NCBI GenBank assembly: GCA_021734255.1
Contig: JAIPJM010000009.1
Coordinates: forward strand, 1-64,000
Length of the DNA: 64,000 bases
Direction: 5' to 3'
Source of the DNA: Fidelibacterota bacterium
GTDB lineage: Bacteria; Fidelibacterota; UBA8477; JABMPR01
Position 1 is the first letter of the stretch; every line of letters starts with the position of its first letter. A model generated the notes under the pieces. The model ran no database searches, was not told the DNA's origin, and worked only from the letters and a program-made list of their open reading frames with translations. Position numbers and translations under genes: made by a program. This document shows positions 24,777-27,797 of the stretch, piece by piece.

Positions 24777-27050
24777 TTGAGTGATAGCCATAACCAAGTT
24801 CGGCGACGTTTCACCATCAATGGCATTGTTCAAGGGGTGGGATTTCGGCCGTTCATTTACAATCTTGCGCGTGAGATTGGATTAACAGGAACCGTTGCCA
24901 ACACGTCTGTTGGTGTCCTTATCGAGATCCAGGGTGAGTCGAAGCAGATCCAGGCATTTTCAAGCCGCACTGAAGCAGAAGCCCCGCCACTTTCAACCAT
25001 TACCTCGATCAAAGAAGAGCCGATACCTGCTACCGAGGAGAATGATTTTATCATTATCTCCTCTGAGGGTGCGAGTGAGGTGGCAACTCTTATCTCCCCT
25101 GATGTAGCGCTATGTGAAGACTGCCGAAATGAATTATTTGACCCTTCCAACCGGCGCTATGGTTACCCCTTCATCAATTGTACGAATTGCGGCCCCCGTT
25201 ATACCATCATTGAGAATATTCCCTACGACCGACCGTATACATCCATGAAACATTTCCCCTTGTGTGTAGACTGCCAGGAAGAATATGACAATCCTGCCGA
25301 TCGGAGGTTTCATGCGCAACCAAACGCCTGTCCCGTTTGTGGTCCCCATGTATGGCTAAGTGATGACAAGGGTCATGCGCTTGATTCAAAGGACTCTGTC
25401 AAGCTGGCCATCGACCTGCTGTCTGGCGGTAAAATACTGGCTATCAAAGGCTTGGGGGGATTCCACCTGGCGGTCGATGCAAAAAATGATGCCGCTGTAG
25501 CACGCCTACGTCAAGCCAAGGGAAGAGATGAAAAGCCCTTTGCGCTGATGGTGAGAGATCTGGACAAAGCAATTCGATATTGTGAGTTGGATGAGAAAGA
25601 GGTCCAGACTCTGGATTCTATCCAGGCTCCCATTCTGCTTGCCGGGCAAAAGAAAGGGACCGATCTGGCAGTCAATATCGCCCCTGGTTCTGACCGGCTG
25701 GGTATCATGCTTCCCTACACACCACTCCATCACATGCTAATGAGTCATTCTCTGGATGTACTGGTCATGACCAGTGCAAACTTTAGTGAAGAACCTATCT
25801 GCATCGACAATGATGAAGCGGTGGAACGATTGTCTGGAATGGTTGATAATTTTCTTTTTCATGATCGGGATATCTATTTGAGAAGTGATGATTCTGTCGT
25901 CATCAAGATGGACGATACGATTCGACCGATACGGCGAAGTCGAGGCTACGCCCCCCGACCTGTATTCCTGAAGGATGAGGGTCCGTCAATCCTGGCTGTA
26001 GGTGCTGAGCTGAAAAATACGGTGGCACTCTCCAAGGACGAAAAAGTATTCCTGAGTCAGCATATTGGAGACCTTGAGAACCTGGAGGCATTTGAGTTCT
26101 TCAAAATGACCATCGAACATATCCAGAGGATCTTCGAGATAGAGCCGGAACTGATCGTCCACGATCTGCACCCAGAATACCTTTCCACAAAATGGGCCAA
26201 GGAACAGACCTTGTCCTTGCTCGGTGTCCAACATCACCATGCTCACCTGGCTTCTGCCATGGCAGAAAATGACCTTAATGAACCAGTAATAGGGATCATC
26301 ATGGATGGGACTGGGTTTGGGACGGATGGTACGATCTGGGGTGGCGAATTCCTGGTCGGGGATTATGCTGGTTTTTCCAGAGCCGCATGCATAGAACCTA
26401 TGGTATTACCGGGCGGGGAAGCAGCTATCAAGGCTCCCTGGCGTACGAGCTTGAGTTATCTGTACCACACATATGGCGAGACGCTTCCTGACATTCCCAT
26501 GCTGGAGGGAAAAGATATTTCTCCAATACTGCAAATGATCGATAAAAGGATCAACTCACCCTTCACCAGCAGTTGTGGACGTCTCTTCGATGCAGTGGCG
26601 GCGCTTTCCGGTGGAAGGCGGGAAATTCGATACGAGGCCCAGGCAGCCATCGAATTCATGCAAGCAGCAAACAATGAATTAGGCAAAGATCGAACTGCTT
26701 TTGATATCACCCAACCCGAGAATCATTACATCATCTCTGTAGGGCATATTATGCAGGAACTCGTTTCAAGGATTGACTCCGGGTACTCATTAGCATCGCT
26801 TAGTCAGTGGTTTCATCATAGCCTTATCACCACTTTTGTAAAGATGACCAACCGACTGAGCCAGAATTCAGGTATCAACAGCGTTGTTCTTAGCGGTGGG
26901 GTATTTCAAAATATGCTACTGTTTGAAGGCTTGGTCAATGCTTTGACTAAACATAATTTTGTGGTATATACTCACAAACAAGTCCCAACGAATGATGGTG
27001 GAATAGCACTGGGGCAGGTGGCTGTGGGGCGAAACTTTTTAGAGAACTGA
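24777..27050 (+). CDS. hypF: Carbamoyltransferase HypF
   Basis: Acylphosphatase N-terminus NGIVQGVGFRPFIYNLA, CxxCx18CxxC zinc fingers, SRGYAPRP, QHHHAHLASAMAE; TTG start. Confidence 0.97.
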   Translation: MSDSHNQVRRRFTINGIVQGVGFRPFIYNLAREIGLTGTVANTSVGVLIEIQGESKQIQAFSSRTEAEAPPLSTITSIKEEPIPATEENDFIIISSEGASEVATLISPDVALCEDCRNELFDPSNRRYGYPFINCTNCGPRYTIIENIPYDRPYTSMKHFPLCVDCQEEYDNPADRRFHAQPNACPVCGPHVWLSDDKGHALDSKDSVKLAIDLLSGGKILAIKGLGGFHLAVDAKNDAAVARLRQAKGRDEKPFALMVRDLDKAIRYCELDEKEVQTLDSIQAPILLAGQKKGTDLAVNIAPGSDRLGIMLPYTPLHHMLMSHSLDVLVMTSANFSEEPICIDNDEAVERLSGMVDNFLFHDRDIYLRSDDSVVIKMDDTIRPIRRSRGYAPRPVFLKDEGPSILAVGAELKNTVALSKDEKVFLSQHIGDLENLEAFEFFKMTIEHIQRIFEIEPELIVHDLHPEYLSTKWAKEQTLSLLGVQHHHAHLASAMAENDLNEPVIGIIMDGTGFGTDGTIWGGEFLVGDYAGFSRAACIEPMVLPGGEAAIKAPWRTSLSYLYHTYGETLPDIPMLEGKDISPILQMIDKRINSPFTSSCGRLFDAVAALSGGRREIRYEAQAAIEFMQAANNELGKDRTAFDITQPENHYIISVGHIMQELVSRIDSGYSLASLSQWFHHSLITTFVKMTNRLSQNSGINSVVLSGGVFQNMLLFEGLVNALTKHNFVVYTHKQVPTNDGGIALGQVAVGRNFLEN

Positions 27051-27515
27051 GTTGTTGAGTTTCTGAGTTTGTGGGCTTAAAATGAAGCAACCCCCAAACA
27101 ATAGCAGGATTTTAAATGGCTACTTTGAAGAAATTTGAAGATGTTCACGCTTGGCAAAAAACACGCGTAATGGTGAAAGAGATATATACTCTTTCAAGTC
27201 TTAGTGCTTTTTCAAAAGATTATGGATTGAAGGATCAAATAAGAAGATGCGGTGTATCAATAATGGCCAATATTGCTGAGGGCTATGGCAGAAAATCAAG
27301 GAAGGAATTTGCCTACTTTCTAAACATTGCTCATGGTTCTGCAGCCGAGTTGCAATCACATTTATATATTGCGCTCGATTTGGGCTATATTGATAAGGAT
27401 AGTTTTGATCATCTATATGCAGAAACTGAAGAAATTTCAAAGATGATATTGGGTCTCCAAAACTATCTCAGGAAATTGGTAAGATCATGAAACTCAAGAA
27501 CTCATAAACTCAGGA
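27046..27515. mobile_element. Putative small cassette: four-helix-bundle gene flanked by inverted TGAGTTNN arrays
   Basis: Left CTGAGTTGTTGAGTTTCTGAGTTTG (27046..); right strand-reversed CTGAGTTTATGAGTTCTTGAGTTTC (..27512); three 8-bp units in each. Confidence 0.45.
27116..27490 (+). CDS. Four-helix bundle protein (23S rRNA IVS-encoded / S23-like family)
   Basis: FEDVHAWQKTRVMVKEIY, LKDQIRRCGVSIMANIAEGYGRKSRKEFAYFLNIAHGSAAELQSHLYIALDLGYI. Confidence 0.93.
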   Translation: MATLKKFEDVHAWQKTRVMVKEIYTLSSLSAFSKDYGLKDQIRRCGVSIMANIAEGYGRKSRKEFAYFLNIAHGSAAELQSHLYIALDLGYIDKDSFDHLYAETEEISKMILGLQNYLRKLVRS

Positions 27516-27524
27516 TAAATAATT

Positions 27525-27797
27525 ATGTGTCTAGCAGTACCCGGAAAATTATTGGAAGTATTTGATGAGAATGGTCTCAAAATGGGAAACATAGATTTTG
27601 CTGGATCAGTAAGCAAAGCCTGTTTGGAGTATGTACCTGAGATCGAAGTTGGGCAGTACACCATCGTTCATGCCGGTTTTGCGCTTTCGGTACTGAATGA
27701 GAAAGAGGCACAGGAAACGTTTGATGCCTGGGATGAGGTCATTGATGCTGCCAATAAAGATGGGATTGGCTTGGAAAAACTGGAGCGTCCTGATTGA
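27525..27797 (+). CDS. hypC: Hydrogenase assembly chaperone HypC
   Basis: [13 protein letters not shown]-terminus. Confidence 0.96.

Follow-up and report, generated by a model that had tools for sequence, protein, structure and literature searches.

Genes of the PF05635 family, common across many bacterial phyla, have been without an established function since they were first seen in the intervening sequences (IVSs) of 23S rRNA. The IVSs of Leptospira and Coxiella that encode the protein S23p are about 0.43 kb in length and have long been suspected to be mobile (PMC4990558). In the current study, we describe a gene of this type (IVP/S23p family, hereafter IVP) in a 64,000-nucleotide stretch of DNA from a Fidelibacterota bacterium (assembly GCA_021734255.1, contig JAIPJM010000009.1, positions 1 to 64,000), which as a whole is called the window. 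The small IVP gene is the sole open reading frame (ORF) of a 470-base cassette that is located between the hydrogenase-maturation genes hypF and hypC, and both ends of the cassette are formed by inverted arrays of a short tandem repeat. When the architecture, the movement and the inferred mechanism are taken jointly, we judge with reasonable confidence that the interval from approximately 27047 to 27513 is a copy of a compact mobile element.

The window-type cassette and the 23S rRNA IVS share a protein family, both end in inverted repeats that can pair as a stem, and the two are probably kin. However, the cassette lies in a protein operon, its ends are arrays of element-specific 7- to 9-bp units, and such cassettes have many copies per genome and move visibly. 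With regard to the defining features of an IVS, the window cassette is situated outside a 23S rRNA gene (at hypF-hypC) and has a predicted terminal stem, with 24-nt arms that are paired in the predicted RNA. A motif search found no copy situated in 23S rRNA among the IVP loci fetched for this study.

Other described systems resemble the cassette in part. The Avd protein of diversity-generating retroelements (DGRs; bAvd, PF22296) has a four-helix-bundle fold and distant homology to the window protein, but neither a reverse transcriptase nor a template or variable repeat lies next to the window cassette, and true Avd genes lack arrays. The only reverse transcriptase match of this genome is on contig C14, whereas the neighbours of the window IVP gene are hyp genes. 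Repetitive extragenic palindromes (REPs) with their REP-associated tyrosine transposases (RAYTs) also form small, single-gene intergenic units of the same genomes that are bounded by inverted sequences; however, those units have a tyrosine transposase (Y1_Tnp) and REP-type hairpins, whereas the window cassette has tandem arrays and no Y1_Tnp. As in classical transposons and insertion sequences, inverted termini mark the limits of mobile homology (locus pairs L010/L015, L025/L105 and L051/L053), but the IVP cassette encodes no recombinase. The eukaryotic foldback transposons FB and Galileo are kilobase-scale elements with a P-type transposase and with terminal inverted repeats composed of short tandem repeats in variable number. 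IVP cassettes are like them in the build of the terminal repeats, and unlike them in host, size, mobilisation and their unrelated protein. TAACTGA and other heptamer repeats of Beggiatoaceae and cyanobacteria are likewise intergenic and tandem, but they share one unit genome-wide, are nearly always direct and lie mostly upstream of genes (PMC4679880), and they are not paired around one gene family as IVP arrays are.

Given that the cassette is not an IVS by its location, and is neither a DGR, a RAYT nor a recombinase-encoding transposon, we rate it as a new class of element. IVP cassettes look like an unrecognised class of mobile DNA that extends across many bacterial phyla, a label that depends on the mechanism. 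Neither an array-bounded IVP cassette nor an IVP protein joined with tandem repeats was found in a literature search that covered few subscription papers and preprints.

The left terminal array of the window cassette (27047..27071, plus strand; CTGAGTTGTTGAGTTTCTGAGTTTG) is composed of three TGAGTTNN units that recur with an 8-bp period and start at positions 27048, 27056 and 27064. The right terminal array (27489..27513) carries three TGAGTTNN units on the bottom strand (CTGAGTTTATGAGTTCTTGAGTTTC) in the same 8-bp register, and the two arms constitute a 24-nt inverted repeat that is 83% complementary. The TGA stop codon of hypF (27048-27050) is the start of the first left-array unit, and the TGA stop codon of the IVP gene occupies positions 27488-27490, such that the right array starts at or overlaps this codon. 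An earlier note on this DNA had described the three inverted units per side, their shared register and the placement of both stop codons, and its coordinates and letters are correct. A leader (27072..27115, plus strand) with an AGGA Shine-Dalgarno-like site at 27106-27109 separates the left array from the IVP gene (27116..27490, plus strand). A search for TGAGTTNNTGAGTTNNTGAGTT with up to two mismatches returned three matches in the 64 kb, all at the cassette, and none in 100 dinucleotide shuffles; the whole 2.87-Mb genome contains one further match to the motif, which is isolated and carries one mismatch. The cassette has no match to an RNA family in Rfam, and the IVP gene has no match to an anti-phage defence family.

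The 124-amino-acid protein encoded by this gene has an isoelectric point (pI) of about 8.9 and matches the PF05635 and TIGR02436 profiles with 133.3 bits (cut-off 33.8) and 131.7 bits (cut-off 24), respectively, while the match to PF22296 (bAvd) is weak at 20.8 bits and that to the PHROG Avd family reaches 29 bits. AlphaFold2 models it confidently as a four-helix bundle, with a mean predicted local distance difference test (pLDDT) value of 97. The best Foldseek match of this model is 2gsc (template modelling score, TM, 0.86); the nearest solved structures are 2gsc and 2rld, and next are Avd (4dwl) and a DGR reverse-transcriptase complex (8ub7). The protein of structure 2gsc, XCC0516, is a homopentameric ring (Lin 2006, as cited in PMC4990558), and by analogy the window protein is probably pentameric as well. 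Members of the family are basic, with a pI of about 9, and the residues Q41, S48, N52, E55 and E78 are invariant among them. No catalytic domain was found in the window protein, whose single ORF matches only PF05635 and, weakly, bAvd.

The genome that contains the window holds four further PF05635-type matches. Two of these are bounded by inverted arrays, of AAAGTCA-type heptamers at L006 and CCAGTCT-type heptamers at L007, and a third (L008) has a weaker array pair. Given that the units at all three differ from those of the window, the array design recurs whereas the unit is specific to each copy. The fourth match (L009, also L265; G000:C19:78292-78609, at a contig end) is the bAvd gene of a DGR. 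It lacks arrays, and on both sides of it there is a 110-nt repeat that we read as variable-region sequence. The earlier note had expected TGAGTTNN arrays at other copies of the gene; arrays do occur there, but the expectation was wrong with respect to the letters, in that each IVP copy has its own unit. Units found at IVP copies include TGAGTTNN in the window, AAAGTCA, CCAGTCT, GTTTGGAA and CAAGGATA.

Among 60 relatives, 46 have PF05635 matches above the cut-off, with as many as 16 copies per genome. IVP loci were taken from GTDB contigs of Bacteroidota, Nitrospira, Planctomycetes, Chloroflexi, candidate phyla and others, and further loci came from cyanobacterial and Riemerella plasmids and from virus contigs. 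The same array test, which combines a local inverted alignment of the 250-bp flanks with 7- to 9-bp periodicity, was applied uniformly. Inverted arrays with a period of 7, 8 or 9 bp are present at 75 of 118 non-redundant IVP genes (64%), which have mutual identities below 75% and represent many phyla. In the controls (Fisher p about 1e-99), the corresponding numbers are 11 of 2338 for matched placements at other points of these loci (0.5%) and 59 of 2337 for combinations of left and right flanks from different elements. Scores of at least 24 were obtained for 8 of 13 extra IVP loci, and arrays accompany seven of eight plasmid copies, with the eighth being weaker. Arrays were also detected at five IVP loci of virus contigs, where a search with the L010 protein yielded 11 loci and a search with the window protein found nothing. 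The six true DGR Avd genes have no arrays, their scores of 13-18 being at chance level, and 38 Y1_Tnp genes from the same genomes have classical REP-type palindromes instead of 7- to 9-bp arrays. In one pair of virus contigs that are 99.6% identical, the IVP element is apparently tandem-duplicated in one (L300) and single in the other (L298), for which an assembly effect is possible.

The arrays have a period of 7 in 48 elements, 8 in 26 and 9 in three, with almost no others. Median unit numbers are 4.7 and 4.6 for the two arms, and the modal number per arm is four to five family-wide, compared with three in the window copy. The nearness of this mode to the pentamer number is only suggestive, owing to detection limits. 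Orthologues can differ in unit count, as at the hyp locus, where the left arm has six units in genome G007 and three in G014. In the sense of the gene, G exceeds C in the left arm of 72 of 77 elements, and the reverse holds in five (p 3e-16). The units have a weak core of RRGTT at period 8 and GTnnnAA at period 7, the information of which is reached by one and none of 200 permutations, respectively.

Unit likeness is 0.76 between the left and right arms of an element, but only 0.23-0.26 between elements whose proteins are less than 50% identical; it rises again to 0.67 at different loci whose proteins are at least 60% identical (n=5 pairs). This left-right match, together with the renewed likeness among close proteins, indicates that each protein lineage carries its unit along and that the arms change in concert. 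For example, at an orthologous locus with flanks that are 94% and 87% identical (L016 and L019), both arms have changed from AGTAGxx to AGTAGAAA. A strict mirror order of units between the arms was considered and is not supported: only 3 of 67 elements reached p<=0.05, in a shuffle test whose bias favours the arms as observed.

As judged from comparisons between loci, IVP cassettes demonstrably move. In one genome, two copies (L025 and L105) are 92% identical over 559 bp, and 98.6% in the ORF region (347/352), but have unrelated flanks, with homology that ends at the arrays; their host genes are of a polysaccharide type and seem highly variable. Similarly, L010 and L015, as well as L051 and L053, share the element alone, and here too homology ends at the arrays. 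The hypF-hypC junction is occupied in five species of one genus (G000, G002, G007, G008 and G014), empty in nine congeners, where it measures 51-70 nt, and marked by degraded remnants in G005 and G017. The earlier note had proposed a mobile or domesticated cassette with the arrays as its edges, and had named conservation at this hyp locus in distant lineages as evidence to the contrary. We found no such conservation, as the locus is occupied in only some members of a single genus, and the proposal gains support from the recurrent arrays, the evidence for movement and the patchy presence at this locus.

The imuB-dnaE2 junction was compared in sixteen congeners, where it is either empty or filled with IVP genes (of two kinds), with Y1_Tnp-like genes or with several of these at once. 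Genome G009 has an extra element where the sequence runs on unbroken in G004, G010 and G014 (about 90% identity). The element is preceded by ATGATCCCCCT and followed by ATGATCCCTCT, and ATGATCCCYCT is present on both sides, which from the sequence we read as a putative 11-bp target duplication that would preserve the upstream stop codon and the dnaE2 start. Elsewhere, an element has been inverted in place (L034 of G047 versus L115 of G036, with flanks 95% and 87% identical), presumably via recombination between its inverted arrays.

The imuB-dnaE2 junction (L244-L259) is an insertion hotspot for several unrelated small elements. In one lineage, it carries an IVP gene that has lost its arrays and has almost no spacing to imuB and dnaE2, as if domesticated. 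At L156 (G004), next to an IVP element of a second kind, there is a remnant that looks like the AAAGTCGAA array belonging to the congeners' element at this locus, and thus elements may target or replace older ones.

Where the neighbouring genes are co-directed, the element lies in sense with them in 107 of 109 cases overall, and in 57 of 59 non-redundant array-bearing cases. In 35 of 64 elements, no more than 10 nt separate the upstream stop codon from the start of the left array, and in 35 of 62 the distance from the end of the right array to the downstream start is at most 30 nt, although this closeness is partly expected of any harmless insertion because gaps within operons are short. The host genes at the junctions, whose names were in part read from the sequences by us, include cysD-cysN (Neomarinimicrobiota, Aliifodinibius), sufA-sufB (Polaribacter and probably Riemerella) and fad genes (Aquimarina). 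Another array-bounded element (L180; Pseudanabaena galeata plasmid pPg_01, 46268-46627) resides within a type I-D CRISPR operon, between its cas6 and cas4 genes. A large survey listed 23S rRNA IVP among new associations of CRISPR adaptation modules (PMC10910872), and insertions such as L180 could explain this association.

On the basis of the architecture, its specificity for one gene family, the element-specific matched ends, the movement, the sense bias and the turnover and decay described above, we propose the following mechanism. An element comprises an IVP gene and terminal inverted arrays of three to about 15 units of 7, 8 or 9 bp, with a unit specific to that element. It inserts in sense at junctions of co-transcribed genes, usually directly past the upstream stop codon, which leaves the host genes on either side intact and would let the cassette be expressed by read-through. 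In the most economical reading, the basic, probably pentameric protein would bind its own arrays as repeated sites, possibly with one unit per protomer, and thereby mark or bridge both ends of the element, while another enzyme, acting in trans, would perform the cutting and joining. Recognition of its own termini by the protein is suggested indirectly by the left-right matched units, the co-inheritance of unit and protein, the strand polarity and the weak GT core. The data suggest that the two ends are recognised as matching partners and that orientation is linked to transcription. As a conjecture, the period of 7-9, compared with 10.5 for the DNA helix, may reflect single-stranded nucleic acid wrapped round the ring.

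Several facts weigh against this reading. Arrays are not detectable at about a third of IVP genes, which we regard as decayed, domesticated or below the threshold of the test. The window cassette, with its single ORF, encodes no transposase or recombinase, and no constantly adjacent partner gene was found. When all elements were scanned for target-site duplications, no excess was seen, and G009 is the sole clear case. Moreover, the shared GT core is weak, the co-inheritance of unit and protein across loci involves five pairs only, and most data derive from draft metagenome assemblies. We are more hesitant still about a larger joint claim, which seems to us possible but on the whole doubtful: that these are a class of recombinase-less bacterial elements, encoding only a non-enzymatic four-helix-bundle protein, in which the protein ring reads an element-specific tandem repeat at both ends, one unit per protomer, that protein and unit co-evolve to give each lineage a private code, and that 23S rRNA IVSs and DGR Avd are offshoots.

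The cassette might instead act at the level of RNA, as in the 23S rRNA IVS. The arms would pair in the transcript and an RNase III-type enzyme would trim the cassette from the polycistronic mRNA, making the insertion harmless, while the protein would bind or protect the excised RNA and any movement would proceed via RNA. The sense orientation and operon location fit this scheme, and the predicted RNA of the element is more stable than all 100 shuffles (z -3.35), with its arms paired in the centroid. There are also precedents in the Coxiella IVS, which has a 28-bp terminal stem and is cut by RNase III (PMC4990558), and in the Avd relative within the DGR reverse-transcriptase-RNA complex 8ub7. 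However, selection for a stem in the sense RNA should favour G-U-compatible mismatches between the arms, and these gave no signal, being not in excess (69 vs 81, p 0.37). In addition, the order of units in the arms is unmirrored beyond unit identity, and reverse transcriptase genes are missing from the majority of IVP-rich genomes, among them one that is a single contig and holds 16 copies. We consider an RNA-level explanation unlikely, while granting it a real chance of being correct.

Mobilisation in trans by Y1 transposases of the RAYT/IS200 type, which are found at some of the same junctions, would be in keeping with the presence of Y1_Tnp in 42 of the 60 relatives and with the Y1_Tnp-like genes that alternate with or adjoin IVP elements at imuB-dnaE2. 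Enzymes of this type recognise hairpins and make no target duplication. The Y1_Tnp genes have REP hairpins and no arrays, IVP elements occur in G049, G052 and G054, where no Y1_Tnp was found, and G009 has its one 11-bp duplication, all of which makes this route highly improbable. The occurrence of genes across IVP genomes does not support either a reverse transcriptase or a Y1 transposase as a required partner. Scarcely more credit is due to the view that the arrays are passive by-products of slippage, growing in intergenic DNA, like the heptamer repeats of cyanobacteria or Beggiatoa, as chance neighbours of an IVP gene. Some genomes do abound in heptamer arrays for which no gene partner is named (PMC4679880), and unit counts do differ between orthologues such as the hyp loci of G007 and G014, but slippage is disfavoured by the gene specificity of the arrays, the inverted matching of units within an element, the strand polarity and the homology of transposed copies that ends at the arrays. 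Lastly, the window IVP gene has a sense position within hypABF-hypCDE and is orthologous in five species, as might be expected of an ordinary, vertically inherited operon gene for hydrogenase maturation. Yet hypF-hypC lacks the gene in nine congeners and retains remnants in two, and the family is found also in cysD-cysN, imuB-dnaE2, sufA-sufB, fad and cas operons. These empty or remnant junctions and varied host operons refute the operon-gene account in general, and for the window we give it almost no weight.

If IVP genes are array-bounded mobile cassettes, then the function of PF05635 genes becomes testable, by asking whether the ring binds its own repeat and what moves the cassette. Mobile elements would then include a class that brings no recombinase of its own, the proteins and their units would offer a natural library of recognition pairs between protein and repeat, and Avd might have its origin here. 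Caution would also be needed before operon neighbours such as IVP genes are read as functional partners, as with the copy in the type I-D cas operon.

With regard to the host genes in the window, the hyp cluster has the order hypA (23400), hypB (23755), hypF (24777-27050), the IVP gene (27116-27490), hypC (27525), hypD (27794) and hypE (28885). The upstream host gene, hypF (24777..27050, plus strand), is evident as an ORF, and hypF orthologues flank the element in loci L022, L027, L040 and L108. An AGGA ribosome-binding-like site for hypC (27512..27515, plus strand) lies directly beside the right array, and most junctions in relatives, whether empty or occupied, have it too. The downstream host gene, hypC (27525..27797, plus strand), is recognised from its ORF and from relatives. 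In a congener (L174, G001:C252), a VapBC-like toxin-antitoxin pair is apparently inserted between hypC and hypD.
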